Origin: Xenophilus azovorans DSM 13620
Lineage (GTDB): Bacteria > Pseudomonadota > Gammaproteobacteria > Burkholderiales > Burkholderiaceae_C
DNA length: 64,000 nucleotides
Reading direction: 5' to 3'
Assembly: GCF_000745855.1 (NCBI RefSeq)
Contig: NZ_JQKD01000021.1
Coordinates: forward strand, 1 to 64,000
A program made the translations under genes and the position numbers. How positions within the stretch are numbered: the stretch's first letter is position 1; every line of letters begins with the position of its first letter. Positions 31,894 through 45,210 of this stretch are shown one piece after another. A model generated the notes under the pieces. The model was not told the origin of the DNA, did no database searches, and saw nothing but the letters and a program-made list of their open reading frames with translations.

Positions 31894-32688
31894 GTGCGCA
31901 CCCTGCGCGCCATCGCCCGGCTGCTCCACGCCATCGCGCACGCGCTGCGCGGCTGGTGGATCATCCGCACGAAGTTCCAGTGGATGGACGACGCGGCGCG
32001 CGGCCGCGAGGTCGAGCGCTGGGCCCGCCGCATGCTGCAGGTGCTGGGCATCCGCCTGGTCGTGCAGGGCACGCCGCCGGGCGAGGGGCCGCTGCTGCTG
32101 GTGTCCAACCACATCTCTTGGCTGGACATCCTGACCCTGCACGCGGCGCGGCACGTGCGCTTCGTCTCCAAGGCGGCCGTGAGGCACTGGCCGCTGATCG
32201 GCACGCTCTCCACCGGCGCCGGCACGCTGTACATCGAGCGCGAGAAGCGCCGCGACGCGATGCGCGTGGTGCACCACATGACGGAGGCGCTGCGGGGCGG
32301 CGACCGCATCGCCGTCTTCCCCGAGGGCACCACCAGCGACGGCCGCGTGCTGCTGCCCTTCCACGCCAACCTGCTGCAGGCCGCGATCTCCGCCGGCGTG
32401 CCGGTGCAGCCGGCGGCGCTGCATTTCGTCGACGCGGCCAGCGGCCAGGCCAGCCTCGCGCCCCGCTACATCGACGAGGACACGCTCGTCAGCTCGCTCT
32501 GGCGCGTGCTGCGCGCGCCGCCGCTGGCGGCCATCGTGCGCTTCGGCGAGCCGCAGGACCCGCACGGCCGCGAGCGCCGCGGCTGGGCCCTGAGCCTGCA
32601 CGCCGACGTGATGGCGCTGCGCGACGCGGCGCAGTTGGAAGAAGACGCGCCGCTCAGCGGTCCAGCCCGCCCAGGCACAGGTACTTGA
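31894..32688 (+). CDS. plsC: 1-acylglycerol-3-phosphate O-acyltransferase (PlsC family)
   Basis: 264 aa, GTG start 10 bp after the dihydroorotase-like gene. HX4D catalytic motif in [12 protein letters not shown], the FPEGTTSDG motif, and [11 protein letters not shown]. It acylates lysophosphatidate in phospholipid synthesis, at the inner membrane via N-terminal hydrophobic helices. The 3' end overlaps the convergent gabD-type gene by 35 bp. Confidence 0.9.
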
Positions 32689-34120
32689 TCTCGAGGAACT
32701 CCTCGATCCCGTACTTCGAGCCCTCGCGCCCCAGCCCCGACTGCTTGACGCCGCCGAAGGGCGCCTCGGCGGTGGAGATCAGGCCGGTGTTCGCGCCGAC
32801 GATGCCCGACTCCAGCTGCTCGGCCACGCGCCAGATGCGGCCCACGTGGCGGGCGTAGAAGTAGGCGGCCAGGCCGAACTCGGTGTCGTTGGCCATCGCG
32901 ATGCCCTCGGCCTCGGTGTCGAAGGCGAAGACGGGCGCCAGCGGGCCGAAGCTCTCCTCGCGCGCGAACAGCATGTCCTGCGTCGCGCCGGCCACCACCG
33001 TCGGCTCGTAGAACAGGCCGCCCAGCGCATGGCGCCTGCCGCCGGTGAGCACCCGGCCGCCCTTGGCCACCGCGTCGGCCACGTGCTCCTCGATCTTGGC
33101 CACCGCCTTGTCGTCGATCAGCGGGCCCTGCGTCACGCCGGCCTCCAGCCCGTTGCCGACCTTCAGCGCGCGCACCTTCTCGACCAGCTTCGCGGTGAAG
33201 GCCTCCAGCACGCCGCGCTGCACGTAGATGCGGTTGGCGCACACGCAGGTCTGCCCGGTGTTGCGGTACTTGGAGATCATCGCGCCCTCGACCGCCGCAT
33301 CCAGGTCCGCGTCGTCGAACACCAGGAAGGGCGCGTTGCCGCCCAGCTCCAGCGAGAGCTTCTTGACCGTGTCGGCCGACTGCTTCATCAGCGTACGGCC
33401 CACCTCGGTGGAGCCGGTGAAGGTGAGCTTGCGCACGATTGGGCTGGCCGTCATCTCGCCGCCGATGGCGCTGGCCGAGCCGGTGAGCACCGACAGCAGC
33501 CCGTCGGGCAGGCCGGCGCGCTGCGCCAGCTCGGCGAAGGCCAGGGCGGAGAAGGGCGTCTGCGTGGCCGGCTTGACCACCATCGCGCAGCCGGCGGCCA
33601 GCGCCGGGCCGGCCTTGCGCGTGAGCATGGCGGTGGGGAAGTTCCAGGGCGTGATGGCGGCGGTGACGCCGATCGGCTGCTTGAGCGCCAGGATGCGCTT
33701 GTCGGCGCCGGGCGCGGGGATGGTGTCGCCGTACACCCGGCGCGCCTCCTCCGCGAACCATTCGATGAAGGAAGCCGCGTAGGCGATCTCGCCCTTGGCC
33801 TCGGCCAGCGGCTTGCCCTGCTCGCTGGTCATGATCAGCGCCAGGTCGTCGGTGTTCGCCAGCATCAGGTCGTTGAGCCTGCGCAGGATGGCGCTGCGCT
33901 CCTTGGCCGGGCGCGCGGCCCAGGCGCGCCAGGCGCCCTCGGCCGCCTCGATGGCGCGCCGCGTCTCGGCCGCGCCGCACACCGGCACGGTGCCGATGGT
34001 CTCGCCGGTGGCGGGGTTGGTCACCGCGATCGTCTTGCCTTCGTCGGCGTCGATCCATGCGCCGGCCAGGAAGGCCTGCTGGCGGAAGAGGGAAGGGTCC
34101 TTCAGGGGGAGTGCGCTCAC
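32654..34120 (-). CDS. gabD: NAD(P)-dependent succinate-semialdehyde dehydrogenase family
   Basis: 488 aa, aldehyde dehydrogenase superfamily. [33 protein letters not shown], catalytic Glu in LELGGNAP and catalytic Cys in [33 protein letters not shown] at the C-terminus is typical of GabD. It oxidises succinate semialdehyde, for example from GABA. No gabT is next to it, so the physiological substrate could be another semialdehyde. Confidence 0.88.
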
Positions 34121-34232
34121 GAGGGGTCTCCGTTGTCGTATGCGAGGGGGCGGCCGGGCCGGTGCGTCGGCGAGGCTTCCAGCTTAGCGGGACCGGCGCG
34201 AAGCCGCTGTCGGTTAAAGTCGCACCCCTCCC

Positions 34233-34307
34233 GTCTCCGTAGTTCAATGGATAGAACGGCCCCCTCCTAAGGGGCAGATGCAGGTTCGATTCCTGCCGGG
34301 TGCGCCA
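34233..34307 (+). tRNA. tRNA-Arg (anticodon CCT)
   Basis: 75 nt including an encoded CCA. The anticodon stem GCCCC/GGGGC holds the loop CTCCTAA, giving CCT. T-arm GCAGG-TTCGATT-CCTGC is perfect. The acceptor stem GTCTCCG against CGGGTGC has a C3-U70 mismatch and two G-U pairs. It is the integration site of the downstream satellite, and tRNA-Arg(CCT) (argW in E. coli) is a known insertion hotspot. The mismatch may reflect a 3' end supplied by the element. Confidence 0.95.
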
Positions 34308-34313
34308 GTGACA

Positions 34314-34347
34314 AACCCAGATCAGTCCAAAGACGTCTGGGTTTTTT
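34314..34347 (+). terminator. Rho-independent terminator after tRNA-Arg
   Basis: Stem AACCCAGA (34314-34321) / TCTGGGTT (34336-34343) followed by T residues to 34347. It lies 6 bp after the tRNA CCA. It is inside the element by position, so it was probably brought in, or rebuilt, by the satellite attachment site. Confidence 0.8.
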
Positions 34348-34420
34348 CATTTCTCCCTCTGTGGGAGAGGCTTTTCAATCCAGAGGCGTCCAGCGAAGTC
34401 TATCTCAATCAAAAATATTT

Positions 34421-34460
34421 GGGGGTAGTTTTCTTCCGGCTGGTTCGCAAATCTGGGGTA
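34421..34460 (+). repeat. Left-end integrase arm-type sites
   Basis: GGGGGTA at 34421-34427 and a related TGGGGTA at about 34454-34460 lie in the 160-bp non-coding left end. The same GGGGGTA motif occurs twice at the other end (45008-45014 and 45020-45026). P4-type integrases bind short repeated arm sites of this kind at both ends. The assignment is by symmetry of position. Confidence 0.45.
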
Positions 34461-34468
34461 TCGGCCCA

Positions 34469-34789
34469 TCAGCCCCCCACCGCCTTGCACATCAGCACCA
34501 GTTCGGCGTCGCCCGAGCGCGGGTTGATGATGCTCTGGATGTCGTACAGCGTGCCCTCGTGGTCGATGCGGTCGGCGCTGGTGATGTCGTCGCGGTAGCG
34601 CATGCGGATGCGCGTGGTGACTTCGGATTGGGCGGCATCGGCGGCGAAGAACTCCCGGCCGTTCAGCGGCTCCACGGCGGCCCAGACGGTGGCCAGCGTC
34701 ACCCACTCATTGATCGGCTGCCCGATAGGCCCCTGGCCTTGCACCAGGCGCTCGATGACCACGCGCTGGCCCAGCTTGCCGGCCTGCAT
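34469..34789 (-). CDS. Phage head closure protein (head-tail adaptor)
   Basis: 106 aa, resembling the SPP1 gp16 / HK97-type head closure family: GKLGQRVVIERLVQG at the N-terminus, NEWVTLATVWAAVEPLNGRE in the middle and ITSADRIDHEGTLYDIQSII near the end. It would close the filled capsid and offer the docking surface for a tail. It is the last gene of the late operon. In a satellite without tail genes, this interface would have to fit helper-phage tails. The ATG at 34789 overlaps the preceding stop. Confidence 0.85.
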   Translation of the reverse strand: MQAGKLGQRVVIERLVQGQGPIGQPINEWVTLATVWAAVEPLNGREFFAADAAQSEVTTRIRMRYRDDITSADRIDHEGTLYDIQSIINPRSGDAELVLMCKAVGG

Positions 34790-35064
34790 CACGCCTCCAT
34801 CGCCCGGTAGGGGTCCAGCAGCCGCGTGAACAGGCGGTTCTCGATGATGGGCCGGTCGGACTGGCTCTCGCGGTTCATGTACAGGCTGCCCACCAGCATC
34901 AGCGCAGCGGCATGCACCGGGGCCGCCTCGGGCAGCTCCTCCAGGTTCAGGTAGTCCAGCACTGCCGCCTCGGCCGCATTGATCATGGCCTGGATGGCGG
35001 CGTCCTCTTCGTCTTGGTCCACGCGAAGATGCAGCTTGGCTTCTTCAAGGTCGATGATGCTCAT
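34789..35064 (-). CDS. Phage head-tail connector protein (gp6-like)
   Basis: 91 aa, all-helical, starting SIIDLEEAKLHLRVDQDEED and carrying AAEAAVLDYLN, typical of gp6/gp15-like connectors that ring the portal. The start at 35064 has GGAGA upstream. A 195-bp non-coding gap separates it from the terL stop, in which I see nothing recognisable. Confidence 0.85.
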   Translation of the reverse strand: MSIIDLEEAKLHLRVDQDEEDAAIQAMINAAEAAVLDYLNLEELPEAAPVHAAALMLVGSLYMNRESQSDRPIIENRLFTRLLDPYRAMEA

Positions 35065-35259
35065 GTCGTTCTCCGAATAGGGGCCAGTCGCGCGGGGTGG
35101 AAAGGGTCGCCCACTGCGGTACGTGTGCCCCTGTCGCGGGGAGCACCACAGCCGCGCCGGTAGTCCCGCCACTGGCATCTCGGTGTTTTGCTGAAACGCG
35201 GCACGGCCCGAGTAATCCGCGTCCTGGTTATCGCTTTCGCGGCCCCCAGGCCAGGCACG

Positions 35260-36762
35260 TCAAACAAAGGTGAAGGCATCGGCGCTGTGCTCCTGGCCTT
35301 CCTCGGCGCGGGCAGCAACACCCATCGCCATCGCAAGGGCCTGCATCCCGTCGATGCGCCCGGTGGCCCGGCTCTTGTCCAGCTTCCTGGCGCCGGTCGG
35401 GTCTTTCGTGACCACGGCATTCGCGGCGCACATCGACAGCACCGGGTGCATGCCGTGGGCGATCCGCCCATTCAGCAGCTCGGCCTCCAGCGCATCCAGG
35501 GCAGGGGCCATGTCCTTGTAGCCCTGGCCCCACTCCACCAGCGGCAGGTCGGCGCCGAGCTTGTCCAGCTCCTTGCGCAGCAGATCGAGGCGCCAGCGGT
35601 CGAACGCGATGGCCTGCACGTCCAGGTCGGCCAGGATGGCGAGCATGTCCTGCGCGACGATCTCATAGTCCACCGTGGCGCCTGCGGTCGTGTGCAGCAG
35701 CCCTTGCCGTGCCCACACGTCATAGGGGGCGCGGTCCCGCTTGGCGCGATCCGTCAGCCCCTGCTCGGGCGTCCAGAAATGCGGCACCACATGCCACACC
35801 CCATCCACCTTGCCGACGATCACCAGCGCCGTGAGGTCGGTGCGCATGGACAGGTCCAGGCCGGCGAACACCGGGCCGTCACTATCCAAATTGGAAAGTG
35901 AGCCGCACGCCTTCCACACATCCGGAGACACGAACGGTGATTCGGTCGATACCCGCTGGTTCAGCAGCAGGTTGCGCGCCGTGTTCTCCATGCTGGGCAT
36001 GCGCTGGGCCTGCTTCATCTGCTCGCGCAGATCGTCCTCCGAGCGGAAGATGCCCAGGGCCGGGTTTGCTGCCCGCCATGCCGCTTCGTCCAGCAGGTCG
36101 CAGCCCTCGGGCGCGGCGTACAGGTGGCACACGATGCGCGGGTCATCGCTGGCCTTGGCGTCATCGATCCAGGTGGACAGCAGATCCGCGTCCGATGCCG
36201 CCTGCGTGCTGATGGCGATCAGCAGCGGCTCGGCGTGGGCGCCCTGGCTGGTGGTGATGGCGTCGATGAAGTCCGACTGCGGCCCGCGCACCTGGCCCAC
36301 TTCGTCCAGGATGGCGAGGACGGGGGACAGCCCGTGTGCCGTGCGGCCATCCGCCGCCAGCGCCCGGAACTCGGTGTTCAGCGGCAGGCCGATCAGGCGC
36401 TTGCCGGACGGGATGATGCGCACCAGCTTCGTGAGCTTGGGCGACTGCTGCACCATCTTGCTGGCAAGGTTGAACACGAGCCCCGCCTGATCCCGGCTCA
36501 TCGCACCCGACACCAGTTGCGCATTGAGCTTCGCCTCGGGGCCGATCAGATGCGCCAGCAGCAGCCCGGCGATCAGGCCCGACTTCCCGTTCTTGCGCGA
36601 CACCGACAGGATGGCCCGGCGCGTGCCGGCCGGGTTGTCGTACACCTCGCGGATGAACTTCTTCTGGAACTCGGCCAGCACCAGCGGCTTGCCCACATCC
36701 GCGCCCTCGGGCGTCACACAGTAACGCTCGATGAACTGGATGATGGCCTCGGCGCGGGTCAT
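35260..36762 (-). CDS. terL: Terminase large subunit
   Basis: 500 aa, HK97-type TerL. ATPase: variant Walker A SVSRKNGKSGLIAG (about residue 55) and Walker B with catalytic Glu in VLAILDEVGQ (about 150). Nuclease domain: GLDLSMRTDLTALVIVG supplies the first metal-binding Asp. It translocates DNA into the capsid and cuts it. Together with TerS and HNH it would give the satellite its own packaging specificity. It starts 17 bp after terS. Confidence 0.93.
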   Translation of the reverse strand: MTRAEAIIQFIERYCVTPEGADVGKPLVLAEFQKKFIREVYDNPAGTRRAILSVSRKNGKSGLIAGLLLAHLIGPEAKLNAQLVSGAMSRDQAGLVFNLASKMVQQSPKLTKLVRIIPSGKRLIGLPLNTEFRALAADGRTAHGLSPVLAILDEVGQVRGPQSDFIDAITTSQGAHAEPLLIAISTQAASDADLLSTWIDDAKASDDPRIVCHLYAAPEGCDLLDEAAWRAANPALGIFRSEDDLREQMKQAQRMPSMENTARNLLLNQRVSTESPFVSPDVWKACGSLSNLDSDGPVFAGLDLSMRTDLTALVIVGKVDGVWHVVPHFWTPEQGLTDRAKRDRAPYDVWARQGLLHTTAGATVDYEIVAQDMLAILADLDVQAIAFDRWRLDLLRKELDKLGADLPLVEWGQGYKDMAPALDALEAELLNGRIAHGMHPVLSMCAANAVVTKDPTGARKLDKSRATGRIDGMQALAMAMGVAARAEEGQEHSADAFTFV

Positions 36763-36779
36763 GATCGTGGGCGCAAAAG

Positions 36780-37193
36780 TCAGCCGACGACGCGCAGGGT
36801 AGGAATGAGCGGGTCGTGCTCTTGCCGGGCCTCGCGCTCCAGGGTTGCAGCGTTCACCATGTCGGCGGCGCGGCCCACCGTGGCGGTGGCATGCACGCTG
36901 ATGGAACGAGACAGAGCCATCGCCAGCCGGGTGAGCTTGGCGTGTTCATCGCTGCCCACGTCGGCGGACTCGATGGCATGCTGCGTGCGGGCGAGATTGG
37001 CGGCCAGCACCAGATCGGCATCGGTCCAGGTGTCACGCGGGCGGCTGGTCACAATCGCGTCCCAGAACGGTTTGCACTGCTCGGGCAGGGTGACGTATGC
37101 AGGCGGTGCAATCGGGCCTTGTGCGGCGTTCTGCGCGGCCTGCACGGCAGCCTTGGCGCTGTCGCTGCGATGGCGCTTGGGCGTGGTCTTCAT
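36780..37193 (-). CDS. terS: Terminase small subunit
   Basis: 137 aa, phage terminase small subunit family (P27/HK97 type): PPAYVTLPEQCKPFWDAIV, then WTDADLVLAANLARTQHAIE. It recognises the packaging site on satellite DNA. It sits between HNH and TerL; all three cooperate in cos-type packaging in related systems. Confidence 0.85.
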   Translation of the reverse strand: MKTTPKRHRSDSAKAAVQAAQNAAQGPIAPPAYVTLPEQCKPFWDAIVTSRPRDTWTDADLVLAANLARTQHAIESADVGSDEHAKLTRLAMALSRSISVHATATVGRAADMVNAATLEREARQEHDPLIPTLRVVG

Positions 37194-37244
37194 GGTTGCC
37201 TATTTATTGAGCAGGTTGCGGTAATTCGAGAGGAACCGGGCGGT

Positions 37245-37697
37245 CTAGCGGCCCCGGTTGCCCGTGATTTCTGGCTTGCGCAGCAGGGCGGCGACGGGCT
37301 TGTCGGCGTTCCACGGGTGGCGCAGGTCGATGGGCCAGCCGTCCAGCCCGCAGCCCAGGCTCACCCTCTTGCCCTTGTCCATCGCCGTCTTGATCGAGTG
37401 GCACGAGTGGCACAGGGGAGCGAGGTTCTCCATCGTGTTGTCGCTCGGATCACCGCTGATGTGGTCCACGTCCGTTGCAGGCTCATGCACACCACGCTGG
37501 ATGCATGCCCTGCACAGGGGCTCACCCGCCAGCACAGATGCGCGCAGGCGCTGCCATGCGGCCGAGTTGAGGGGCAGGGTGCGGCGAGGGTCTGCATCGC
37601 GTCCCGACCGCTTGGCGCGAGGCGTCTTGAGCGTGGGGAGGCGATCAGGCAGCGTCTGCAAGCGTGGCTGCAGCATCTTGAGCTTCGGGCGCGTCAT
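37245..37697 (-). CDS. HNH endonuclease (packaging-associated)
   Basis: 150 aa. The HNH core reads CRACIQRG, ATDVDHISGDPSDNTMENLA, then LCHSCHS, with two zinc-knuckle Cys pairs and the catalytic His in VDHI. The N-terminus is basic. HNH proteins next to terminase stimulate cos cleavage by TerL in HK97-like phages and are a regular part of cf-PICI packaging modules. Its start overlaps the portal stop by ATGA. Confidence 0.9.
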   Translation of the reverse strand: MTRPKLKMLQPRLQTLPDRLPTLKTPRAKRSGRDADPRRTLPLNSAAWQRLRASVLAGEPLCRACIQRGVHEPATDVDHISGDPSDNTMENLAPLCHSCHSIKTAMDKGKRVSLGCGLDGWPIDLRHPWNADKPVAALLRKPEITGNRGR

Positions 37698-38917
37698 GCG
37701 GCCTCCTTCTGCTTGCTGGGGTAGGGCTGCGGCGCAGGGGTCGGATTTGGCGTCTGACCCTCGACCGATGCGTCATCAATGCCCTCGATGCTCGGCAGGT
37801 TCTCCAGCTTGCGGGCCTCGGACTTGAGCATCCATCCCGAGGTGATGCCCGATGCGTAGAAGGCGGAACGGTTGGCACTGTCGCCGCGCAGCATCCCTTC
37901 CACGTTGTGCTCGGGGTAGTAGATCCGTCGCCCTGCATCGGTCAGGCACTTGGCGCTGATGGCCGATTCCCACATGGTCAGGTGCCGGCGCATGGTCAGC
38001 GTGACGAACTGGCGGGCCAGCTCCACGCTGTTGCTGTAGTTGGCGCTCTCCATGCTCTGCACGATCACTGGAGGCACACGGAACAGGCGGCACACCTCGA
38101 TCACCGACAGCTTGCGCGCCTCGATCCATTCGGCATCCTCCAGCGTCATGCTGACGGTCTGGTAGTCGACGCCTTCCTCCAGGATCGCGGTCTTGCCGGC
38201 ATTGCTGCCACCGGCATGCTGACTGGCCCACGATTCGCGGATGGCCGTGCGCTGCTCGGGCTTGAGCTTGCCGGGGAACTTGAGCACGCCCAGCAGGCGG
38301 GCACCGTTGCGGAAGGTGTTCACACCATGCTCGCCCTCGGCAATCGCCAGCTCCACCACACCACGCGCGGCCTGAATCGGGCTGATGCCCATCACGCCGT
38401 CGTCGGCGAGGCGGTGACGCAGATGCAGCACTTCCTCGGGCAGCAGGCGATGCATCCGGCCCATCGTGTCGGCGTACTCGTAGGCCAGCCGGCCGGAGTC
38501 CAGGCGCAGCACCGTCATGCGGTCGGGGCTGATGGGCCACAGCTCGCGCACCTGGCCGTCGTAGCCGCGCACGATCTTGGCGAAGGCATTGCCGCGCAGC
38601 AGCACGCAGGCAGTGAGATATTCCCGGCCCTCCATCGCGGTCTGCTCGGGGTTGAACTGGTCGTTCAGCACGCGGTACAGCGGATGGTCGGTGGCCTTCT
38701 CGCGGTCGTCGCCCTTGTTGCGGTACAGCGGCAGGGGCAGCGTGGCAGCCGTCTCGCTGATGGCCTGCACGCAGGCATAGACGGCGCTGACGCCTTGCGC
38801 GGTCTGGTCGTTCACGGGACCCGTGCGCAGGGCCTGGAAGGCGCCCCAGGTGTCGTTCGGGTTGGTGGCCCGGCGCTCCAGGCCGACAAGGTGCAGGGCG
38901 CGGTCGAGGATGTTCAT
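37694..38917 (-). CDS. Phage portal protein (HK97 family)
   Basis: 407 aa. Family features: AVYACVQAISETAATLPLPL, EYLTACVLLRGNAFAKIVRG, EVLHLRHRLADDGVMGISPI and LSVIEVCRLFRVPPVIVQSM. It forms the dodecameric DNA entry ring at one capsid vertex. The ATG at 38917 overlaps the protease stop by ATGA, so translation is coupled. C-terminal tail is Pro-rich. Confidence 0.93.
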   Translation of the reverse strand: MNILDRALHLVGLERRATNPNDTWGAFQALRTGPVNDQTAQGVSAVYACVQAISETAATLPLPLYRNKGDDREKATDHPLYRVLNDQFNPEQTAMEGREYLTACVLLRGNAFAKIVRGYDGQVRELWPISPDRMTVLRLDSGRLAYEYADTMGRMHRLLPEEVLHLRHRLADDGVMGISPIQAARGVVELAIAEGEHGVNTFRNGARLLGVLKFPGKLKPEQRTAIRESWASQHAGGSNAGKTAILEEGVDYQTVSMTLEDAEWIEARKLSVIEVCRLFRVPPVIVQSMESANYSNSVELARQFVTLTMRRHLTMWESAISAKCLTDAGRRIYYPEHNVEGMLRGDSANRSAFYASGITSGWMLKSEARKLENLPSIEGIDDASVEGQTPNPTPAPQPYPSKQKEAA

Positions 38918-39441
38918 TCGCAGGTTTCCAGCCACAGGCGCCGGGTGTCGGTCAGCACCAGCGCAGGACGGTTGCGCAGGGCCACAGTTGTGTCGGCATA
39001 GGCCGGGTCACTGGTCAGGGTGATTTCGGCCAGGTCCACGCTCAGCAGTTCGCGCACGAGCTGCGCGCCGCGCTGCTCCCATCGGTCGCCGCCATCGGCC
39101 ACGCGAAACCCGAATGAACACCCAGCCACATCACCACGATCCACCAGCACAGCCAGGTCACGGCCGTGGGTGGTGTCCGGCAAAGCCAGTGTGAAAGCCA
39201 GTCCATGCGTGTCCTCCCGAAGTTGCAGCGTGCCGCCGCGCGTCGTGCCCAGCAGCGCATCGCCCTGGTGGTGGTACAGGGCGCGAATGTTGGAGCCGCT
39301 TTCCAGGGTCTTGCGGAAGGCACCATTGCGGATCACCTCAACGAAGCCCCCCAGGTCGGCCTCGCTGTTGAACACCGCCGCATACCCGCGCAGGGTCTTG
39401 CCCTCGCTGCGCAGGCTGCCGGTCGAGCGGATCTCCAACAT
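38914..39441 (-). CDS. HK97-family prohead protease
   Basis: 175 aa. It begins LEIRSTGSLRSEGKTLRGYA and contains the LYHHQGDALLGTTRGGTL segment with the catalytic His region, followed by the CSFGFRVADGG strand with the serine. It trims the capsid N-terminal delta domain during maturation. The start has AAGGAG at the right spacing. Confidence 0.9.
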   Translation of the reverse strand: MLEIRSTGSLRSEGKTLRGYAAVFNSEADLGGFVEVIRNGAFRKTLESGSNIRALYHHQGDALLGTTRGGTLQLREDTHGLAFTLALPDTTHGRDLAVLVDRGDVAGCSFGFRVADGGDRWEQRGAQLVRELLSVDLAEITLTSDPAYADTTVALRNRPALVLTDTRRLWLETCE

Positions 39442-39451
39442 TCGCAGCTCC

Positions 39452-40702
39452 TTATTCCTCTTCGGGGAACTCCAGGGCCACGTCCGCCACCGACAGGAAC
39501 GCGGTGGGGTGGCGCACCACGGCATCCATCGTGTGCAGGATGCGCAGTTGCACGTCGCCCTTCTCGTAGTAGCCGGCGGCATAGGGGTTCGCCAGCACTT
39601 CCGTGGCGCCCCATTCGCCGATTACCAGTTGCGAGAAGTCGCCCATGACCAGGCGGCCCGTGGTGGCGTCCACGTCCGTCAACTGGTTGGTCGTGTGCGT
39701 GGTCAGCCCGTTGATTCGCCCGCCTTCCAGCAGGTACGACGAGCCGGCCGTCGCGTCCTTGAGCGTGGCTTGCAGACGGGTGGCGGTCTTGGGCGTGATG
39801 AGCGCGGCATTCGGGGCCGTGTTCGCGGTGGCGAACTTCTCGAACAGGCCCAGGATGGACAGCCAGTCCACCGTCGCCAGCGAGCCGGTCAGGATGCCCG
39901 ACACGTTCAGGATGCCGACGGGTTGCTTGGCAACCGCAGTGCCCGACAGCAGCGCCTTGTCCACGGCCAGCGACACCACGGCCGAGAAGTCGTCGCGGAT
40001 CAACTGCTCGATGGCCGGGTTGCTCTGCTGGATGAGCTGGCGGCTGATGCTCGACAGCGCGCCGACGTGCTTGGGCTCCAGCTTCACGCTGGAATAGGTC
40101 GTGTTGCTCTCGGTCAGCGAATCGCCCTCGGCGAGCCAGTACGCGGTCGCGGCGGTGGCTTGCTTCGGGATCACGGTATCGCCGCGCAGACCCGTCAGCA
40201 CGCGGGCGCCGAGTTGCTTCACGATCAGCGAGTTGCGCAGCAGGCCGATGAACTGGTCCGCCTTGAAGTCGTCGGGGACGATGGCAGCGGCGCCGCCGGT
40301 GGTCAGGGTCGTGCGCTTCTCGAAGATGGACGTGGGCAGCAGGATGCCGCCCTTCTTGGGCTCGATGCCCTGGCGCTTGGCTTCCTGCTGGAACTCGGCC
40401 AGCGCGCCGGTGACAGCGCGGTTCTCCACCTGAGCGGCGATGGCGTCCAGCACGTTCACGCGCGACTCCATGTCCTTGCGGGACTTGTCCACGGGCGTGC
40501 CGGTGGCGCGGCGCTCCATGTCCTCGATGAACTGCGCCCGGGCCTCGTCGGCTTCCAGGGCGGTGATTTCGGCTTTGAGGGCGTCGAACTTGGCCTTGGC
40601 CTCGGGCGTGAGGGTCTCGGCAGACAGCAGGGTGCGGGCTTCGGCCACCTTGGCGGTGCGGGCTTCGCGGATCGCGGCGAGTTGCATAGCGGGGTCTTTC
40701 AT
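39452..40702 (-). CDS. Major capsid protein (HK97 fold, with delta domain)
   Basis: 416 aa. Residues 1 to about 105 form a helical coiled-coil scaffold (delta) domain rich in Ala, Glu and Lys. The HK97 coat fold follows: GGAAAIVPDDFKADQFIGLL, SSISRQLIQQSNPAIEQLIR, and GRLVMGDFSQLVIGEWGATE. Start uncertain: GTG at 40714 and ATG at 40687 are alternatives, and none has a strong ribosome site. First gene of the late operon. In cf-PICIs the homologous protein builds capsids sized for the smaller satellite genome. Confidence 0.92.
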   Translation of the reverse strand: MKDPAMQLAAIREARTAKVAEARTLLSAETLTPEAKAKFDALKAEITALEADEARAQFIEDMERRATGTPVDKSRKDMESRVNVLDAIAAQVENRAVTGALAEFQQEAKRQGIEPKKGGILLPTSIFEKRTTLTTGGAAAIVPDDFKADQFIGLLRNSLIVKQLGARVLTGLRGDTVIPKQATAATAYWLAEGDSLTESNTTYSSVKLEPKHVGALSSISRQLIQQSNPAIEQLIRDDFSAVVSLAVDKALLSGTAVAKQPVGILNVSGILTGSLATVDWLSILGLFEKFATANTAPNAALITPKTATRLQATLKDATAGSSYLLEGGRINGLTTHTTNQLTDVDATTGRLVMGDFSQLVIGEWGATEVLANPYAAGYYEKGDVQLRILHTMDAVVRHPTAFLSVADVALEFPEEE

Positions 40703-40734
40703 GAATTGGCCCACGCTATCGGCGGGCAGATTGA

Positions 40735-40784
40735 GATAGTAGAAACACTATCACAATTCAGAATCGATAGCAAATATCTATCGA
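40735..40784 (-). promoter_or_regulatory. Two GATAG...CTATC dyads ahead of the satellite capsid operon
   Basis: Dyad 1: GATAGT (40735-40740) / ACTATC (40747-40752). Dyad 2: TCGATAG (40764-40770) / CTATCGA (40778-40784). Both are perfect, share the GATAG half-site and have centres about 31 bp apart (three turns). They lie in AT-rich DNA between the early terminator and the capsid gene, where the late promoter must be. Probable binding sites for a late-gene regulator. Confidence 0.6.
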
Positions 40785-40790
40785 ACTGGC

Positions 40791-40815
40791 GAAAAAAAAG
40801 CGCCGGAAGGCGCCG
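40791..40815 (-). terminator. Rho-independent terminator ending the satellite early operon
   Basis: On the minus strand the stem GGCGCC/GGCGC with a TTCC loop is followed by eight T residues (A-run at 40792-40799 on plus). It separates the replication genes from the head and packaging genes. Confidence 0.85.
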
Positions 40816-40823
40816 AGTTGCAA

Positions 40824-40867
40824 AAGTTGCGCAGTTGCGTTGCCTAAGGGGCGCAACTGCGCAACTT
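40824..40867. repeat. Satellite palindromic element, copy A
   Basis: Perfect 16-bp inverted repeat AAGTTGCGCAGTTGCG / CGCAACTGCGCAACTT around a 12-nt loop. It lies 2 bp past the stop of the 121-aa gene and just before the early terminator. Two more copies lie inside the neighbouring coding regions. Confidence 0.85.
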
Positions 40868-40869
40868 CT

Positions 40870-41235
40870 CTACTGCACCCACGGCGGCGGCTCGAATGCG
40901 GGCTGGATGGTCAGCACCCGGCCCGGCGGCACGCTGGACTTGATCCGCTTCTGCGGCATCGCCCAATAGGTCCTGCCGTCGCTTTTCATCACGCGCACCA
41001 GCATGTCCTCGGCGGCGAGAACAATGTCATTCCAGAGCAACCCGGCATCCTTCGCGGCGGCCAGGATCGACGGCACCGGCACGATGTGGTCGGCGAGGAA
41101 CTCGCGCAGCCATTGGCGGGGATCGGGCGTGGGGTCGTTCGCGGCATCTTCGGAAGTTGCGCAGTTGCGCTCCCTAGGCAACGCAACAACGCAACTTTCC
41201 TCGATGGCATCCAGCAGGGCATCACGCAGGCTCAT
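40870..41235 (-). CDS. Satellite protein of unknown function carrying an in-frame palindromic insertion
   Basis: 121 aa, no family recognised. Its start overlaps the RepA-like stop by ATGA, so it belongs to the replication operon. Residues 14-28 (SCVVALPRERNCATS) are encoded by palindrome copy B. The rest (PDPRQWLREFLADHIVPVPS, then ILAAAKDAGLLWNDIVLAA) resembles a small winged-helix or helical domain, perhaps a regulator or replication accessory factor. Confidence 0.6.
   Translation of the reverse strand: MSLRDALLDAIEESCVVALPRERNCATSEDAANDPTPDPRQWLREFLADHIVPVPSILAAAKDAGLLWNDIVLAAEDMLVRVMKSDGRTYWAMPQKRIKSSVPPGRVLTIQPAFEPPPWVQ
41154..41197. repeat. Satellite palindromic element, copy B (within coding sequence)
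   Basis: Left arm AAGTTGCGCAGTTGCG (41154-41169) and right arm CGCAACAACGCAACTT (41182-41197), 14 of 16 positions complementary, 12-nt loop containing CCTAGG. It lies in frame in the 121-aa protein. Confidence 0.85.
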
Positions 41236-42323
41236 TGCGGAATCTCCTCGATGTCGTCCTCGGTCTGGTCGGAGTTGCGCAGTTGCGTTGCCCTAGGGAA
41301 CGCAACAACGCAACTTTTCTGGCCGGCGGCCTTGACGGGGGGCTTTTCGGGCTGGATCAGGCCCAGCTCGCGCGCCTTCTTCAGCGCGCGGCTGATGCTG
41401 GACTTATTGAGACCCAGTTCCACGGCAATGTCACCTTGTCGCAACCCGTCGTTCGCCAGCCGCACGATTCGGTCGAAGTTGCTGCCCTCGGCGGTGTTCC
41501 AGGCCCATGTCGCGCGCCGCGAGGCGTCATCCACCACCAGCTTCAATTCCAGGCTTTCCGCGTCCTCGCCGATCAGGTTGCGGCCCTTGGTGAACTCCAT
41601 GACGAACACGGAGCCTTCGCGCGGGTCATAGTCGGCGGGGCGGGCCAGCTTGACGACGGTGTCCAGCAGATCCTCCTTCTTGCTGGTGCCGCGCTGGTCG
41701 CCACCCTTGCCGGCGTGGTGGACCAACAGCACGGCGATGCCTCTGCGGCGCAACGCCAGCAGCCATGCCGCAATAGGGGTCCACGAGTCGGCGTCGTTCT
41801 CCTTGCCGCCGCCGCGCGCCCAGGCGCTCAGGTTGTCCAACACCACCAGAGCGGTGTCGTCGTCGATCATGCTGTTGATGATGTCCTGGCCGTCGGCGCG
41901 GGCCAGGTCGGGCAGCGTCTGACCGTCGCCGAGAAGGTCCGGGGTGAACACCCGAAAGAAGCCGGGTGCAGGTTCCACGTCCGGCAGGTGCATGGCAAGG
42001 CGCTTCTGCATGACCTGGCCGGGCAGTTCGCCGTCGAGATACAGCACCTTGCGCGGCTCGCGCGCCGTCCAGCGCAGGAATGTCCCGCCCGTGGCCGTCG
42101 CAAACCCAGCGGACAGCGCCCAATGCGTCTTGCCGATGCCGCGCCCGGCGTAGACCATCATCAAGTCTTGCGAGTGGATCAGGTTGCCCAGCAGCGGAGT
42201 GCGGGGCTTGAACTTATGGCGTGCAAGATCGTGAAGGTCCAGGGCATGCACGGGGGGCGCAGCGGGCAAGCCGGCCTCCACGTCCAGCACGGCGGCCATC
42301 GCTTCGTAGTCGTCCCGCTTCAT
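41232..42323 (-). CDS. RepA-like RecA-fold ATPase / helicase (satellite replication)
   Basis: 363 aa. Walker A YAGRGIGKTHWALS (about residue 58), Walker B TALVVLDNLSAWA (about 155) and VLLVHHAGKGGDQRGTS sensor region, as in RepA/DnaB-like AAA ATPases of plasmids and satellites. A C-terminal winged helix follows (GDIAVELGLNKSSISRALKK). Residues about 336-351 are encoded by palindrome copy C, near the C-terminus. Paired with the zinc-finger primase upstream, it is probably the replicative helicase or initiator of the element. Start overlaps the primase stop by ATGA. Confidence 0.85.
   Translation of the reverse strand: MKRDDYEAMAAVLDVEAGLPAAPPVHALDLHDLARHKFKPRTPLLGNLIHSQDLMMVYAGRGIGKTHWALSAGFATATGGTFLRWTAREPRKVLYLDGELPGQVMQKRLAMHLPDVEPAPGFFRVFTPDLLGDGQTLPDLARADGQDIINSMIDDDTALVVLDNLSAWARGGGKENDADSWTPIAAWLLALRRRGIAVLLVHHAGKGGDQRGTSKKEDLLDTVVKLARPADYDPREGSVFVMEFTKGRNLIGEDAESLELKLVVDDASRRATWAWNTAEGSNFDRIVRLANDGLRQGDIAVELGLNKSSISRALKKARELGLIQPEKPPVKAAGQKSCVVAFPRATQLRNSDQTEDDIEEIPQ
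41272..41316. repeat. Satellite palindromic element, copy C (within coding sequence)
   Basis: Left arm AGTTGCGCAGTTGCG (41273-41287) and right arm CGCAACAACGCAACTT (41301-41316) with a 13-nt loop containing CCCTAGGG. It lies in frame in the RepA-like gene. The loop is one base longer than in copies A and B. Confidence 0.85.
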
Positions 42324-42778
42324 GCGAATGCCTCCGCGATGCGGTTGATGCGTCCGACGGCCACCATCAGCCGGGCGCGGTCGGCGTCGGTCAGGGCCAG
42401 GCCCTTGGCGATGTTGCCGGCCGCCACCGCCGTCAGGGTGGACTCGAAGTTCAGCACCTGGATGGCCTGGCGGGCGGGCAAGGGGGTGGCCTTGTGCCGG
42501 GTCTCGGGCTTGCCGTCCTCGATCCACGCGCCCAGGGCCTTGGCCGCGCTGATGAAGTCGGCGCCCGTGGTCGCCATCTCGTAGGCCAGCACGTCGCCGC
42601 CCTTGGCCGCGCAGGACATGCACACCCACGCGCCGGTCGCGGTGTTGATGCGCATGCTGTCGCTGCCGTCGTGGAACACGCAACGCGCCGAGCGCCATTT
42701 GCCCTTGGGGGTCAGCTTCAAGTCCTGGTGTTCGAAGTAGCTCAGCGGGTCCGGGAGCCGGTTGCGGTCGAAGCTCAT
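42320..42778 (-). CDS. CHC2-type zinc-finger primase protein
   Basis: 152 aa. The zinc ribbon is CVFHDGSDSMRINTATG followed by WVCMSC, that is C-x2-H ... C-x2-C as in DnaG-type primases and related satellite proteins. No TOPRIM catalytic domain is present, so it is either a loader or part of a two-gene primase. Overlaps both neighbours by ATGA. Confidence 0.8.
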   Translation of the reverse strand: MSFDRNRLPDPLSYFEHQDLKLTPKGKWRSARCVFHDGSDSMRINTATGAWVCMSCAAKGGDVLAYEMATTGADFISAAKALGAWIEDGKPETRHKATPLPARQAIQVLNFESTLTAVAAGNIAKGLALTDADRARLMVAVGRINRIAEAFA

Positions 42779-43005
42779 GGCCGGCCCTCCAGGTGGTGGG
42801 CCAGTTCGGCGTTCAGGTAGTCGGCCACCCACTCGCGGTTCTCGCGCCAGTGCGGGCCGTGCTTGGCCTCGCACATCGCCATTTGCCTGGCGAACCAGGC
42901 GCGGGCCTTCGGACGCAGCTCAACGGGGATTGCGTCCTCGTTCAGCAGGCAGGTGTCGTCGGGTGCGGTCGGGCTGACCGCCTCGTGTTGGACGATCTCG
43001 TGCAT
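42775..43005 (-). CDS. Small satellite protein, unknown
   Basis: 76 aa, acidic N-terminus, then an amphipathic helical stretch (ELRPKARAWFARQMAMCEAK). GGGAGG lies before the start, and the stop overlaps the primase start. No domain recognised; position between alpA and primase suggests an early regulatory or replication role. Confidence 0.6.
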   Translation of the reverse strand: MHEIVQHEAVSPTAPDDTCLLNEDAIPVELRPKARAWFARQMAMCEAKHGPHWRENREWVADYLNAELAHHLEGRP

Positions 43006-43018
43006 GACGGCCTCCCGC

Positions 43019-43216
43019 TCACAGGGATGCGATCAGGCGGTCGATGTCGCTGCGGCGCCAGCAGGTCGTCTTCGGCCCCAGCTTGATGCCGGGCGGGAAG
43101 CGGCCTTCCTTGACGCCTGCCCACCAGCCTGCGCGGCTGACAGGCACACGGGCCAGGACTTGAGGGAGACGCAGCAGGGCGTCGTCGAGTGGTTGGGCTT
43201 TTGCCTCGGTGGTCAT
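43019..43216 (-). CDS. alpA: AlpA-family transcriptional regulator / excisionase
   Basis: 65 aa, MerR-like winged helix: LLRLPQVLARVPVSRAGWW, then VKEGRFPPGIKLGPKTTCWR and RSDIDRLIASL. In Gram-negative PICIs AlpA is the master activator of the early operon and can assist excision. The start at 43216 has AAAAGGATAG upstream. A strong palindrome lies 60-85 bp upstream. No divergent repressor gene was found. Confidence 0.85.
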   Translation of the reverse strand: MTTEAKAQPLDDALLRLPQVLARVPVSRAGWWAGVKEGRFPPGIKLGPKTTCWRRSDIDRLIASL

Positions 43217-43274
43217 CGCTATCCTTTTCATAGTGCGATATGTAAAAACCACCAGAGCCGTGGAGCGGGTCACA

Positions 43275-43301
43275 CCCCAAGTCAACTACGGTTGACCGGG
43301 G
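43275..43301. promoter_or_regulatory. Palindromic operator upstream of alpA
   Basis: GTCAAC (43281-43286) / GTTGAC (43291-43296) with a 4-bp TACG centre, extended outward by CCCC (43275-43278) and GGGG (43298-43301). It lies about 60 bp upstream of the alpA start, where its promoter is expected. Candidate site for the regulator that switches on the early operon. Confidence 0.5.
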
Positions 43302-43370
43302 TATGTGCCGACCCATAAACTGCGAGTCCTCTCCATGCTAAGAAGAGTGGGCTCTAGGTTTCGGCCTGGT

Positions 43371-43442
43371 GTCCAAGAAGGCCCCTTGAGCTTGCCGGCT
43401 CTCGGGGCCTTCGCCTTTTTGGACCACTGGATGTCCAAAAAG
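43371..43442 (+). terminator. Overlapping hairpins with a plus-strand terminator
   Basis: Hairpin 1: GTCCAA then GAAGGCCCC (43371-43385) pairs with GGGGCCTTC (43404-43412) and TTGGAC (43419-43424), with a T5 run at 43416-43420, a good plus-strand terminator. Hairpin 2: CTTTTTGGAC (43415-43424) pairs with GTCCAAAAAG (43433-43442). They share TTGGAC, so they exclude each other. The plus-strand transcript ended here is not known; a short RNA antisense to the int-alpA gap is possible. Confidence 0.55.
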
Positions 43443-43814
43443 CGCAACGAACTATATCTAGGGGGGAATGAGGGTTCAAGGCACTAGATGTAGTGTTTTT
43501 CACGAACGTCACAGTACAGGCGGTGCGCATCGCTAGCGCCTCTCCCAACACAACCGTCCGCCAGGCCAATAGCCATGCGGGTGTCTATTCAGAAACCCAG
43601 CATCCATGCGGGCTAGCGGGCGGTTTTGGTCCAGAGGGTGCATAGCCGTTTCCTCTCTGGTCGCCGAATTCATAGTGAAATTCAGTTGACAAATGCAGTG
43701 AGCGGAATCCTTTCCCGATAGAAAAAATTCAGCGCGCGTTACCTTTTTGAGCATGATCTGCACCTTGTCGACGCGGAAGTCGTCGTGCATGTCGTCGAAC
43801 GCGGGGTGTACATG
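43443..43814. other. Non-coding gap between satellite integrase and alpA
   Basis: About 370 bp, AT-richer than the host. Only short frames occur on minus (for example 43533-43790, 85 codons), without ribosome sites or recognised domains. A GC-rich 70-bp patch next to the integrase stop (43745-43814) could be a gene scrap. The satellite's replication origin or control RNA could lie here; nothing decisive is seen. Confidence 0.4.
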
Positions 43815-44984
43815 TCACACGGCATGTCGTAGCCCATCCAGGTAGTCGGCCCACCACTGCATGAGCTTCTGGCGTTCTTGCAGGCGAATGCCCCGGTCGT
43901 AGGCGGCGCGCACCTCGTTGCGTTCGGCGTGGGCCAGGGCGCGCTCGATGGCATCAGCGTTGTGGCCCGCCTCGTTGGCGATGGTGCTGAAGAGGGACCG
44001 GAACCCGTGGACCGTGGCCTCGCCGAAGCCCATCCGCGCCAGCATGCTGTTGAAGGTGTTCTCCGACAGTGACTTGCTGGGGTAGTACGGGCTGGGGAAG
44101 ATCAGCTCACGGTCGCCCGTCAGAGGCTTCATCGCGTCGAGCACTTCCAGGGCCTGGCGGGACAGGGGGATGACATGATCCCGGTCCATCTTCATCCGTG
44201 CGGCCGGGATGCGCCATATCTTCGCGTCGATCTCGGCCCAGCGCGCACCCCTTGCCTCGCCGCTTCTGGTCGCGGTCAGGATCAAGAACCACATCGCGTT
44301 CTTCGTGTGCGGGTCACCGCCGTAGCTGCCCAGCTTGCGCAGGAAGTCGGGCAACTCCTCCAGGGCGATGGCGGCGCGGTGCTTGACCTTGTACGGCTTC
44401 AGGATCTCCGACTGCACCAGATCCAGCATGGGGTTGTGCTTGATCTTGTCGTGCGTGACGGCGAAGCGGAATACAGCCTTGATCCGCTGGAGCACCCGGC
44501 CGGCCATGTCGCGGGCGCCGGTGCTTTCCACACCCTTGACCACCGCCATCACGTCACGGGCGGCAAGGTTTGCAATGGGGCGTGAGCCCAGGGTGGGGTA
44601 GGCGTGCGTCTCCAGGGATGCCTTGATGGCGGCGGCGGTGTCCTCGCTCCAGCGGCTGCGCTGGTGGTCCATCCACTCGATGGAAACCGACTTGAAGGTG
44701 TTCTCGGCGTTGAAGGCGATCAGGGCCTTGGCCTGCTTTTTCAGTTCACCAGGGTCCACGCCCTCGGCGAGCGCGCGGCGGGCGTCGGTGCGCTTGTCCC
44801 TGGCCTGCGCCAGCGTCACCTCGGGATAGGTGCCCAGCGCCAGCAGCTTCTCCTTACCGCCGTAGCGATATTTCAGCCGCCAGTACTTCGCGCCCGTCGC
44901 AGCGACAAGCAGGTACAGCCCTTTGCCGTCGGCGTGCTTGCCGACTGCCTTGAGATTCTTGACCTTTACGTCCGATAGCTTCAC
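43815..44984 (-). CDS. int: P4-type tyrosine integrase of the satellite
   Basis: 389 aa. N-terminal arm-binding domain of the DUF4102 type (KVKNLKAVGKHADGKGLYLL, KYRYGGKEKLLALGTYPEVT), SAM-like core-binding domain, and catalytic domain with Arg in TATRSGEARGARW, HGFRS, HAERN and the nucleophile in VRAAYDRG. P4-type integrases favour tRNA 3' ends, consistent with tRNA-Arg at the far side. The gene starts near the right boundary, beside two GGGGGTA arm motifs. Confidence 0.95.
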   Translation of the reverse strand: MKLSDVKVKNLKAVGKHADGKGLYLLVAATGAKYWRLKYRYGGKEKLLALGTYPEVTLAQARDKRTDARRALAEGVDPGELKKQAKALIAFNAENTFKSVSIEWMDHQRSRWSEDTAAAIKASLETHAYPTLGSRPIANLAARDVMAVVKGVESTGARDMAGRVLQRIKAVFRFAVTHDKIKHNPMLDLVQSEILKPYKVKHRAAIALEELPDFLRKLGSYGGDPHTKNAMWFLILTATRSGEARGARWAEIDAKIWRIPAARMKMDRDHVIPLSRQALEVLDAMKPLTGDRELIFPSPYYPSKSLSENTFNSMLARMGFGEATVHGFRSLFSTIANEAGHNADAIERALAHAERNEVRAAYDRGIRLQERQKLMQWWADYLDGLRHAV

Positions 44985-45007
44985 GGGTCGTCACCTTGGG
45001 GGTATGA

Positions 45008-45026
45008 ACGGGGGTAAATTCTCCCG
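45008..45026 (+). repeat. Right-end integrase arm-type sites
   Basis: GGGGGTA occurs at 45008-45014 and 45020-45026, in the same orientation as the left-end copies, directly upstream of the integrase start. They probably mark the P or P' arm and so place the element end just beyond. Confidence 0.5.
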
Positions 45027-45210
45027 CCATTTCGGTGACGCCTAGGATTGATGCCGCTTCCCGGCTAGTCTTTGGTTACTGCCGGGGCACCACCTCCGCC
45101 GCCGCTGCCCGCACGTCGTACGTTCCGTAAAGGAGGGTACGCCTTCCGGCGCATGTCGCGCCGGCGACCTCGCTCCCTAGAATCGCCGCTCTTCAACGTG
45201 GAGCCGGGTC

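Follow-up and report, generated by a model that had tools for sequence, protein, structure and literature searches.

The first 64,000 nucleotides of contig NZ_JQKD01000021.1 of Xenophilus azovorans DSM 13620 (the window) carry an element of about 10.8 kb, with all genes on the minus strand, which extends from a tRNA-Arg(CCT) gene (34233-34307) to a weakly supported right end near 45076-45092. Published gene lists and gene order make it very likely that this is an element of cf-PICI type (capsid-forming phage-inducible chromosomal island), an integrated satellite that would make its own heads and probably borrows tails from other viruses. The class assignment is right, and the class itself is already known; new here are the link of a structured RNA (RF03044) to satellites rather than phages, a copy of the host nrdA promoter upstream of alpA, and an apparent satellite-plasmid form outside Vibrio.

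Gene families come from Pfam, PHROGs and NCBIfam, with 15 minus-strand open reading frames (ORFs) tested. Every gene named in the initial annotation is present with an open frame on that strand, and the late genes follow the order it described: capsid, protease, portal, HNH endonuclease, small and large terminase subunits (TerS and TerL), connector (adaptor) and head closure. The early genes are integrase, alpA, primase and a RepA-like ATPase; no tail, lysis or phage-type CI gene was found among the 15 ORFs, again as first claimed. cf-PICIs would share this gene order. HK97 and its kin share with the element the HNH-cos-TerS-TerL block, TerL (65% identity) and the portal, protease, capsid and connector families, but are ordered TerS-TerL-portal-protease-capsid-connectors-tail; neither phage gene order nor a downstream tail module was found in the window element. 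Excerpts of PMC10448857 and PMC13230959 give cf-PICIs (prototype EcCIEDL933, helpers HK106 and HK446) the same early part, with integrase, AlpA and primase/Rep, and the same late genes without tails. The contrast with phage order drawn earlier held: HK97 has the phage order, and head genes precede TerL in 87 of 102 related loci. The proposed fit to cf-PICI order agrees with a figure legend that speaks of a ‘conserved gene order’ (PMC13230959, excerpt). The element differs in its host group, as Burkholderiales and Pseudomonas are not in the main-host list seen in the excerpted PMC10803314, in its nrdA promoter copy and in RF03044, for which the comparison does not extend to E. coli cf-PICIs.

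The late module is recurrent. A TerL scan retrieved 102 loci (22 from bacterial genomes and 80 of 105 from viral contigs), in which portal or capsid precede TerL in 87 (satellite order, 77 distinct TerLs), follow it in eight (phage order) or are of undecided order (seven). Among the 87 is the copy in the window itself (L031, identical to 34278-44984), and named hosts of the group are, among others, Acidovorax, Herbaspirillum, Diaphorobacter, Ramlibacter, Polaromonas, Simplicispira, Ottowia, Hydrogenophaga and Stutzerimonas. Satellite gene order is not quite fixed, since four loci (L052, L088, L089, L106) have head closure between portal and HNH. Some relatives look damaged: in L024 both capsid and TerL are matched as two separate pieces, and the capsid stretch of L009 contains a stop. 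A tRNA scan covered 16 loci besides the window. In eight of them (L010, L015, L016, L019, L020, L022, L024, L030) a tRNA stands at an end of the element, and all eight show clear, exact direct repeats of 15-49 nt, bounding 10.5-11.2 kb in which not every inner ORF was examined; the tRNA lies at the late-gene end in six, as in the window, and at the integrase end in two, and the relatives are integrated in different tRNAs. L032, from a viral contig collection, has late proteins 93-100% identical to those of the window, and the ratio of nonsynonymous to synonymous substitution (dN/dS) between the two is 0.12 for capsid, 0.17 for portal, 0.15 for TerL, 0.15 for HNH, 0.08 for TerS and 0.30 for the adaptor. 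Their late genes are thus under purifying selection. Four satellite contigs (L036, L058, L101, L102) stand under one IMG genome number (2648501912), and L101 and L102 have nearly the same TerL; one strain may hold several satellites.

In the cycle that we propose, a helper phage, or another cue at the nrdA-like promoter, would trigger the element; AlpA and integrase would excise it, and primase and ATPase would replicate it. Capsid and protease would form a small head, which the terminase, with HNH, would fill through the portal after cutting at cos; adaptor and head closure would cap it, helper siphophage tails would dock on the head closure, and helper lysis would free the particles. The RNA located next to the head genes would serve some satellite function.

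The first step invites a competing reading, in which the early genes answer to a host nrdA-type promoter instead of a helper cue, so that replication follows stress in deoxynucleoside triphosphate (dNTP) supply. We regard this as somewhat unlikely. In its favour, 60 of 61 bases are identical to the host nrdA promoter region, and the copy lies about 165 nt ahead of alpA in the orientation that the original has to nrdA, a near-identity that demonstrates host promoter capture as far as sequence comparison goes. It holds a predicted promoter of sigma-70-like type, TTGAAC-N17-TATAGT (the element has two such sites, against 1.4 in shuffles), and two palindromic boxes, presumably NrdR boxes. L058 has a similar double palindrome (one mismatch, spacing 31) before its early ORFs. 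Against it, a scan of the 102 loci showed the double box only in the element's own copy (L031) and L058, and NrdR-type boxes were rejected as a family rule; a reversed-sequence control in that scan gave three weaker pairs (four mismatches), box 2 lacks its outer bases, and the name NrdR is a prediction. With a stricter consensus, neither 3 Mb of random sequence nor the reversed loci yielded a pair by chance. As the copy was found in no other genome of the genus among the matches listed, it may be a recent accident. We hypothesise that dNTP supply controls the early genes. The Rfam int-alpA RNA (RF02996) occurs in the early region of seven of 20 relatives (L009, L032, L034, L036, L037, L040, L101); the window gave no match at cut-off, and its int-alpA gap holds the promoter copy.

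The satellite reading has itself to be weighed against a decayed prophage now missing its tail and lysis half, which the initial annotation held to be unlikely. The head genes are of HK97 type, TerL resembles that of HK97 as given above, and two groups of phage-order TerLs fall inside the satellite part of the tree; yet the frames are open, head genes precede TerL in most of the loci, selection has been purifying with respect to L032, the att-bounded size is uniform in eight relatives, and the capsid is at most 37% identical to the best 20 of 88 phage records. We therefore agree that decay is very unlikely. Full-length phages with the same gene arrangement, which the annotation had named as counter-evidence, were sought and not found: the eight phage-order loci and HK97 differ in order; a near-identity DNA search of phage records with the element gave no match. 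A structure model of the capsid was of low confidence (pLDDT 51) and was not used. The capsid profile also matches the Rcc01687 entries 6tb9 and 6tba, which we take to be the Rhodobacter capsulatus capsid. An excerpt of PMC12846349 groups an E. coli cf-PICI capsid with that gene-transfer agent, but a domesticated element whose heads do not serve its own transfer, such as a gene-transfer-agent-like particle, is highly improbable given its own integrase, terminase and cos-like site, relatives in different tRNAs, and no such module in 14 other genus genomes among the matches listed.

The satellite with its own heads and without tails, as originally proposed, is thus upheld by gene content and order, by the 87 satellite-order loci and by the att-bounded relatives. 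Several points weigh against it. The element is known here from its sequence, and its class was assigned by gene content and order. At about 10.8 kb it is smaller than the average cf-PICI, given as 14 kb (PMC10803314, excerpt), its right attachment site (attR) is weak in shuffle tests, and no helper was found in the genome with seven families. Tail absence was not checked gene by gene in each relative, and dN/dS is higher in the distant pairs with L033 and L034 (with L033, capsid 0.75 and adaptor 0.85). Finally, the TerL tree gives no clean split of satellites and phages. Most phage-order rows fall outside the satellites, the phage-order label requires four changes, and L100 and the pair L104/L105 are nested inside; terminases have therefore crossed over between satellites and phages.

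Features of the element and its borders in the window
Feature	Position	Strand	Basis or remark
tRNA-Arg(CCT)	34233..34307	+	likely integration target; 34290-34307 (last 18 nt) presumed attL
head closure protein Hc1 (Phage_HCP)	34469..34792	-	family match
head-tail adaptor Ad1 (Phage_connect_1, phrog_40)	34789..35064	-	family match
Proteo-phage-1 RNA (RF03044)	35175..35256	-	Rfam; 3 nt past TerL stop
TerL, HK97 type	35260..36762	-	family match
TerS (phrog_5601)	36780..37193	-	family match
putative cos site, ACCG-N15-TTTAACGCTAAC	37218..37245	-	motif comparison; HK97 spacing, tail 8/12
HNH endonuclease	37245..37697	-	family match
portal protein, HK97 type	37694..38935	-	family match
prohead protease (Peptidase_S78)	38914..39441	-	family match
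major capsid protein, HK97 type (PF05065, phrog_617)	39452..40714	-	family match
44-nt palindromes, three (16-nt arms in copy 1)	40824-40867, 41154-41197, 41272-41315	n/a	similar copies around 121-aa ORF
121-aa ORF	40870..41235	-	no family
AAA_25 (RepA-like) ATPase with winged helix	41232..42323	-	family match
primase fragment, CHC2 zinc ribbon	42320..42778	-	family match
76-aa ORF	42775..43005	-	no family; stretch 50% identical in L016
AlpA regulator	43019..43285	-	family match
nrdA promoter copy	43451..43511	-	60/61 identical to host; directed at alpA
ORF o85, 85 aa	43533..43790		no Pfam family
22 nt of host sequence at 3' end of ampD, beside nrdA	43715..43736	-	identity
tyrosine integrase (Arm-DNA-bind_3, Phage_integrase)	43815..44984	-	family match
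attR candidate, weak	45076..45092	n/a	resembles host tRNA 3' end

The list of genes first given stands, and to it are added the RNA, the cos-like site, the three palindromes and the nrdA promoter copy, all of which it had missed. The ORF o85, which overlaps copied host DNA, is probably no gene. A DNA search of the genome itself gave no further copy of the palindromes among the matches listed, and they are possibly an origin or a terminator. As a family trait they were rejected, inverted repeats having been found in two of nine relatives only (L012, L009) and with different sequence.

A helper with compatible tails, fitting the head closure and connector, had been postulated. The idea is reasonable, and a search of the host genome (132 contigs, 99.6% complete) with seven families found none: there is no second portal (PF04860) or head closure (PF05521) outside the element, and no match to the tail families PF10145, PF06791, PF20155, PF13550 and PF05939, other tail types not having been searched. 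A resident helper prophage was rejected on this result. We do not count its absence against the class, since in the EcCIEDL933 host not one of the 17 prophages detectably mobilised that element whereas HK106 and HK446, the known cf-PICI helpers, did (excerpt of the review PMC11389934). The TerLs of these two phages are 65% identical to that of the window. Among the matches listed, the best phage head closures reach 48.5% identity and belong to Klebsiella and Escherichia phages, that of mEp235 being 47.6% identical and mEpX2 also appearing; the adaptor had no phage match at 1e-3, though adaptor families match. We infer a tail donor of HK97-like type.

In HK97, HNH lies at the right end of the genome and TerS at the left. 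The genome ends are, we assume, its cos, which would then fall between the two genes. The HNH-TerS gap of the satellites holds ACCG, 15 bases and a block like that in the table, with the spacing of HK97. Of 87 loci in which HNH and TerS are both present (phage-order loci and L031 left out of this count), 82 agree in at least seven of the 12 block positions, a level reached by 24 of 2000 shuffles; the window block, with eight of 12, is equalled by four of 2000. This gap would thus hold a putative HK97-type cos site.

Another component of the late region is RF03044 (Proteo-phage-1), an orphan Rfam RNA among the head genes. Of 20 relatives scanned, 18 carry it at the Rfam cut-off; of the two without it (L059, L098), L059 has a C4 antisense RNA at L059:2234-2325. 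A model built from 19 copies matched 57 of 97 sources. RF03044 is present in 52 of the 87 satellite-order loci, a total of 87 that takes in six searched separately (L013, L028, L088, L094, L096, L106), in 40 of the 50 whose sequence continues for 200 nt or more past the last late gene, and in five of seven undecided-order loci; it is absent from all eight phage-order loci, and the model search did not find it in HK97. A weak match in L013 (14.7 bits, opposite strand) was not counted. The RNA directly follows TerL in one group and head closure in another, and we dropped a role in readthrough of the TerL stop because of the second placement. On 18 distinct rows, a structure with two covarying pseudoknots pairs 96.0% of cells and shows double changes in 16 of 21 pairs, both pseudoknot helices included, a score favoured by its having been drawn from the same sequences; none of 500 shuffles was as good, and slid versions were 34-48% paired.

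A search independent of TerL, in 399 genomes of the host's family, found the RNA in 18, above the cut-off in 16, with 19 hits including that of the window. Ten of the 18 others follow a capsid-to-TerL satellite module and two lie in partial ones (L174 at a contig edge, L177); four lie beside head genes for which tblastn gave no TerL or portal homologue (not every ORF scanned), and the remaining two are both under the cut-off. Several of these hits are evidently elements from the TerL scan of bacterial genomes. In a class-wide sample, two of 369 genomes matched, and of these the own genome alone was above the cut-off. On these hits, RF03044 goes with head-making satellites and not with one terminase. 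The four loci beside head genes appear satellite-like, with the RNA 5-405 nt past the last head gene: capsid and protease in L178, capsid and protease of another type in L179 and L180, and a PF03864 capsid in L182, the first three with an integrase match. RF03044 stands after head genes with three or more capsid types, occupies two places in the late operon and is absent from the tested phage-order TerL relatives and HK97. It is on these grounds possible, if short of probable, that it is a conserved RNA of head-making phage satellites acting in the head or packaging step, with a packaging RNA, a protector of late mRNA or an RNA aimed at the helper as candidate roles. No mention of the RNA by name was found in the literature collection searched.

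Three relatives (L011, L062, L075) are circular contigs with exact terminal repeats that carry late genes of the same family, together with a ParA and ParG pair (L011) or Rep3 and a resolvase (L062, L075). The window integrase gave no match in them, although not every ORF was scanned, and a search for att sites found a single 16/17 match to a tRNA-Lys arm in two of the three. Their TerLs sit among Burkholderiales and Pseudomonas-type satellites in the TerL tree. That these circles are excised forms was rejected: because they carry plasmid genes, they are episomes and no proof of excision. In the excerpted PMC13230959, the satellite-plasmids termed cf-PISPs are reported from Vibrio, with no case in any other genus. 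The three circles, which share with cf-PISPs the late gene set, circularity and plasmid maintenance genes, are apparently satellite-plasmids outside Vibrio; the window element differs from a cf-PISP by its integrase and its tRNA site.

Judging from sequence comparison, the left end of the element probably falls within the 3' end of tRNA-Arg(CCT). This tRNA end reads CCTGCCGGGTGCGCCA, unlike the three forms in nine relatives of the genus, all of which end in GGGGCACCA, as if it had been supplied by the element. Beyond the integrase, TTACTGCCGGGGCACCA at 45076-45092 resembles the host 3' form, a match equalled by 60, 42 and 2 of 1000 shuffles for the three genus forms and by 65 of 1000 for the window's own. 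The figure of 9 of 2000 shuffles belongs to a composite tRNA form carried by no relative retrieved, a longer alignment is not significant (94 of 300), and no exact 12-nt repeat of the tRNA was found downstream. The borders set earlier (34308..45035) accordingly need adjustment: the left one probably lies within the tRNA 3' end and the right one somewhat further out. On the far flank are host genes for TamB and an Omp85/TamA-like protein. Four genus relatives (L131-L134) have acyltransferase, tRNA-Arg(CCT), a variable stretch and then tamB; L135, L136, L139 and L140 have tamB at a greater distance on the same contig, and L138 has it on another contig. This variable stretch marks the tRNA-Arg(CCT) locus as an insertion hotspot. 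The late module itself was found only in the own genome among the matches listed for 15 genus genomes. An aldehyde dehydrogenase gene (32654-34123) lies between acyltransferase and tRNA-Arg; it is 99% identical to a copy elsewhere in the genome of another species of the genus (L137) and was not seen at this site in the genus-relative stretches.

Tail-borrowing satellites would thus recur in Burkholderiales and Pseudomonas as a compact family, with a likely cos site and an insertion rule. The window element offers a testable case of satellite early genes that lie downstream of a copied host promoter for dNTP supply, and its part most worth following is the doubly knotted RNA, kept in a genome without room to spare.

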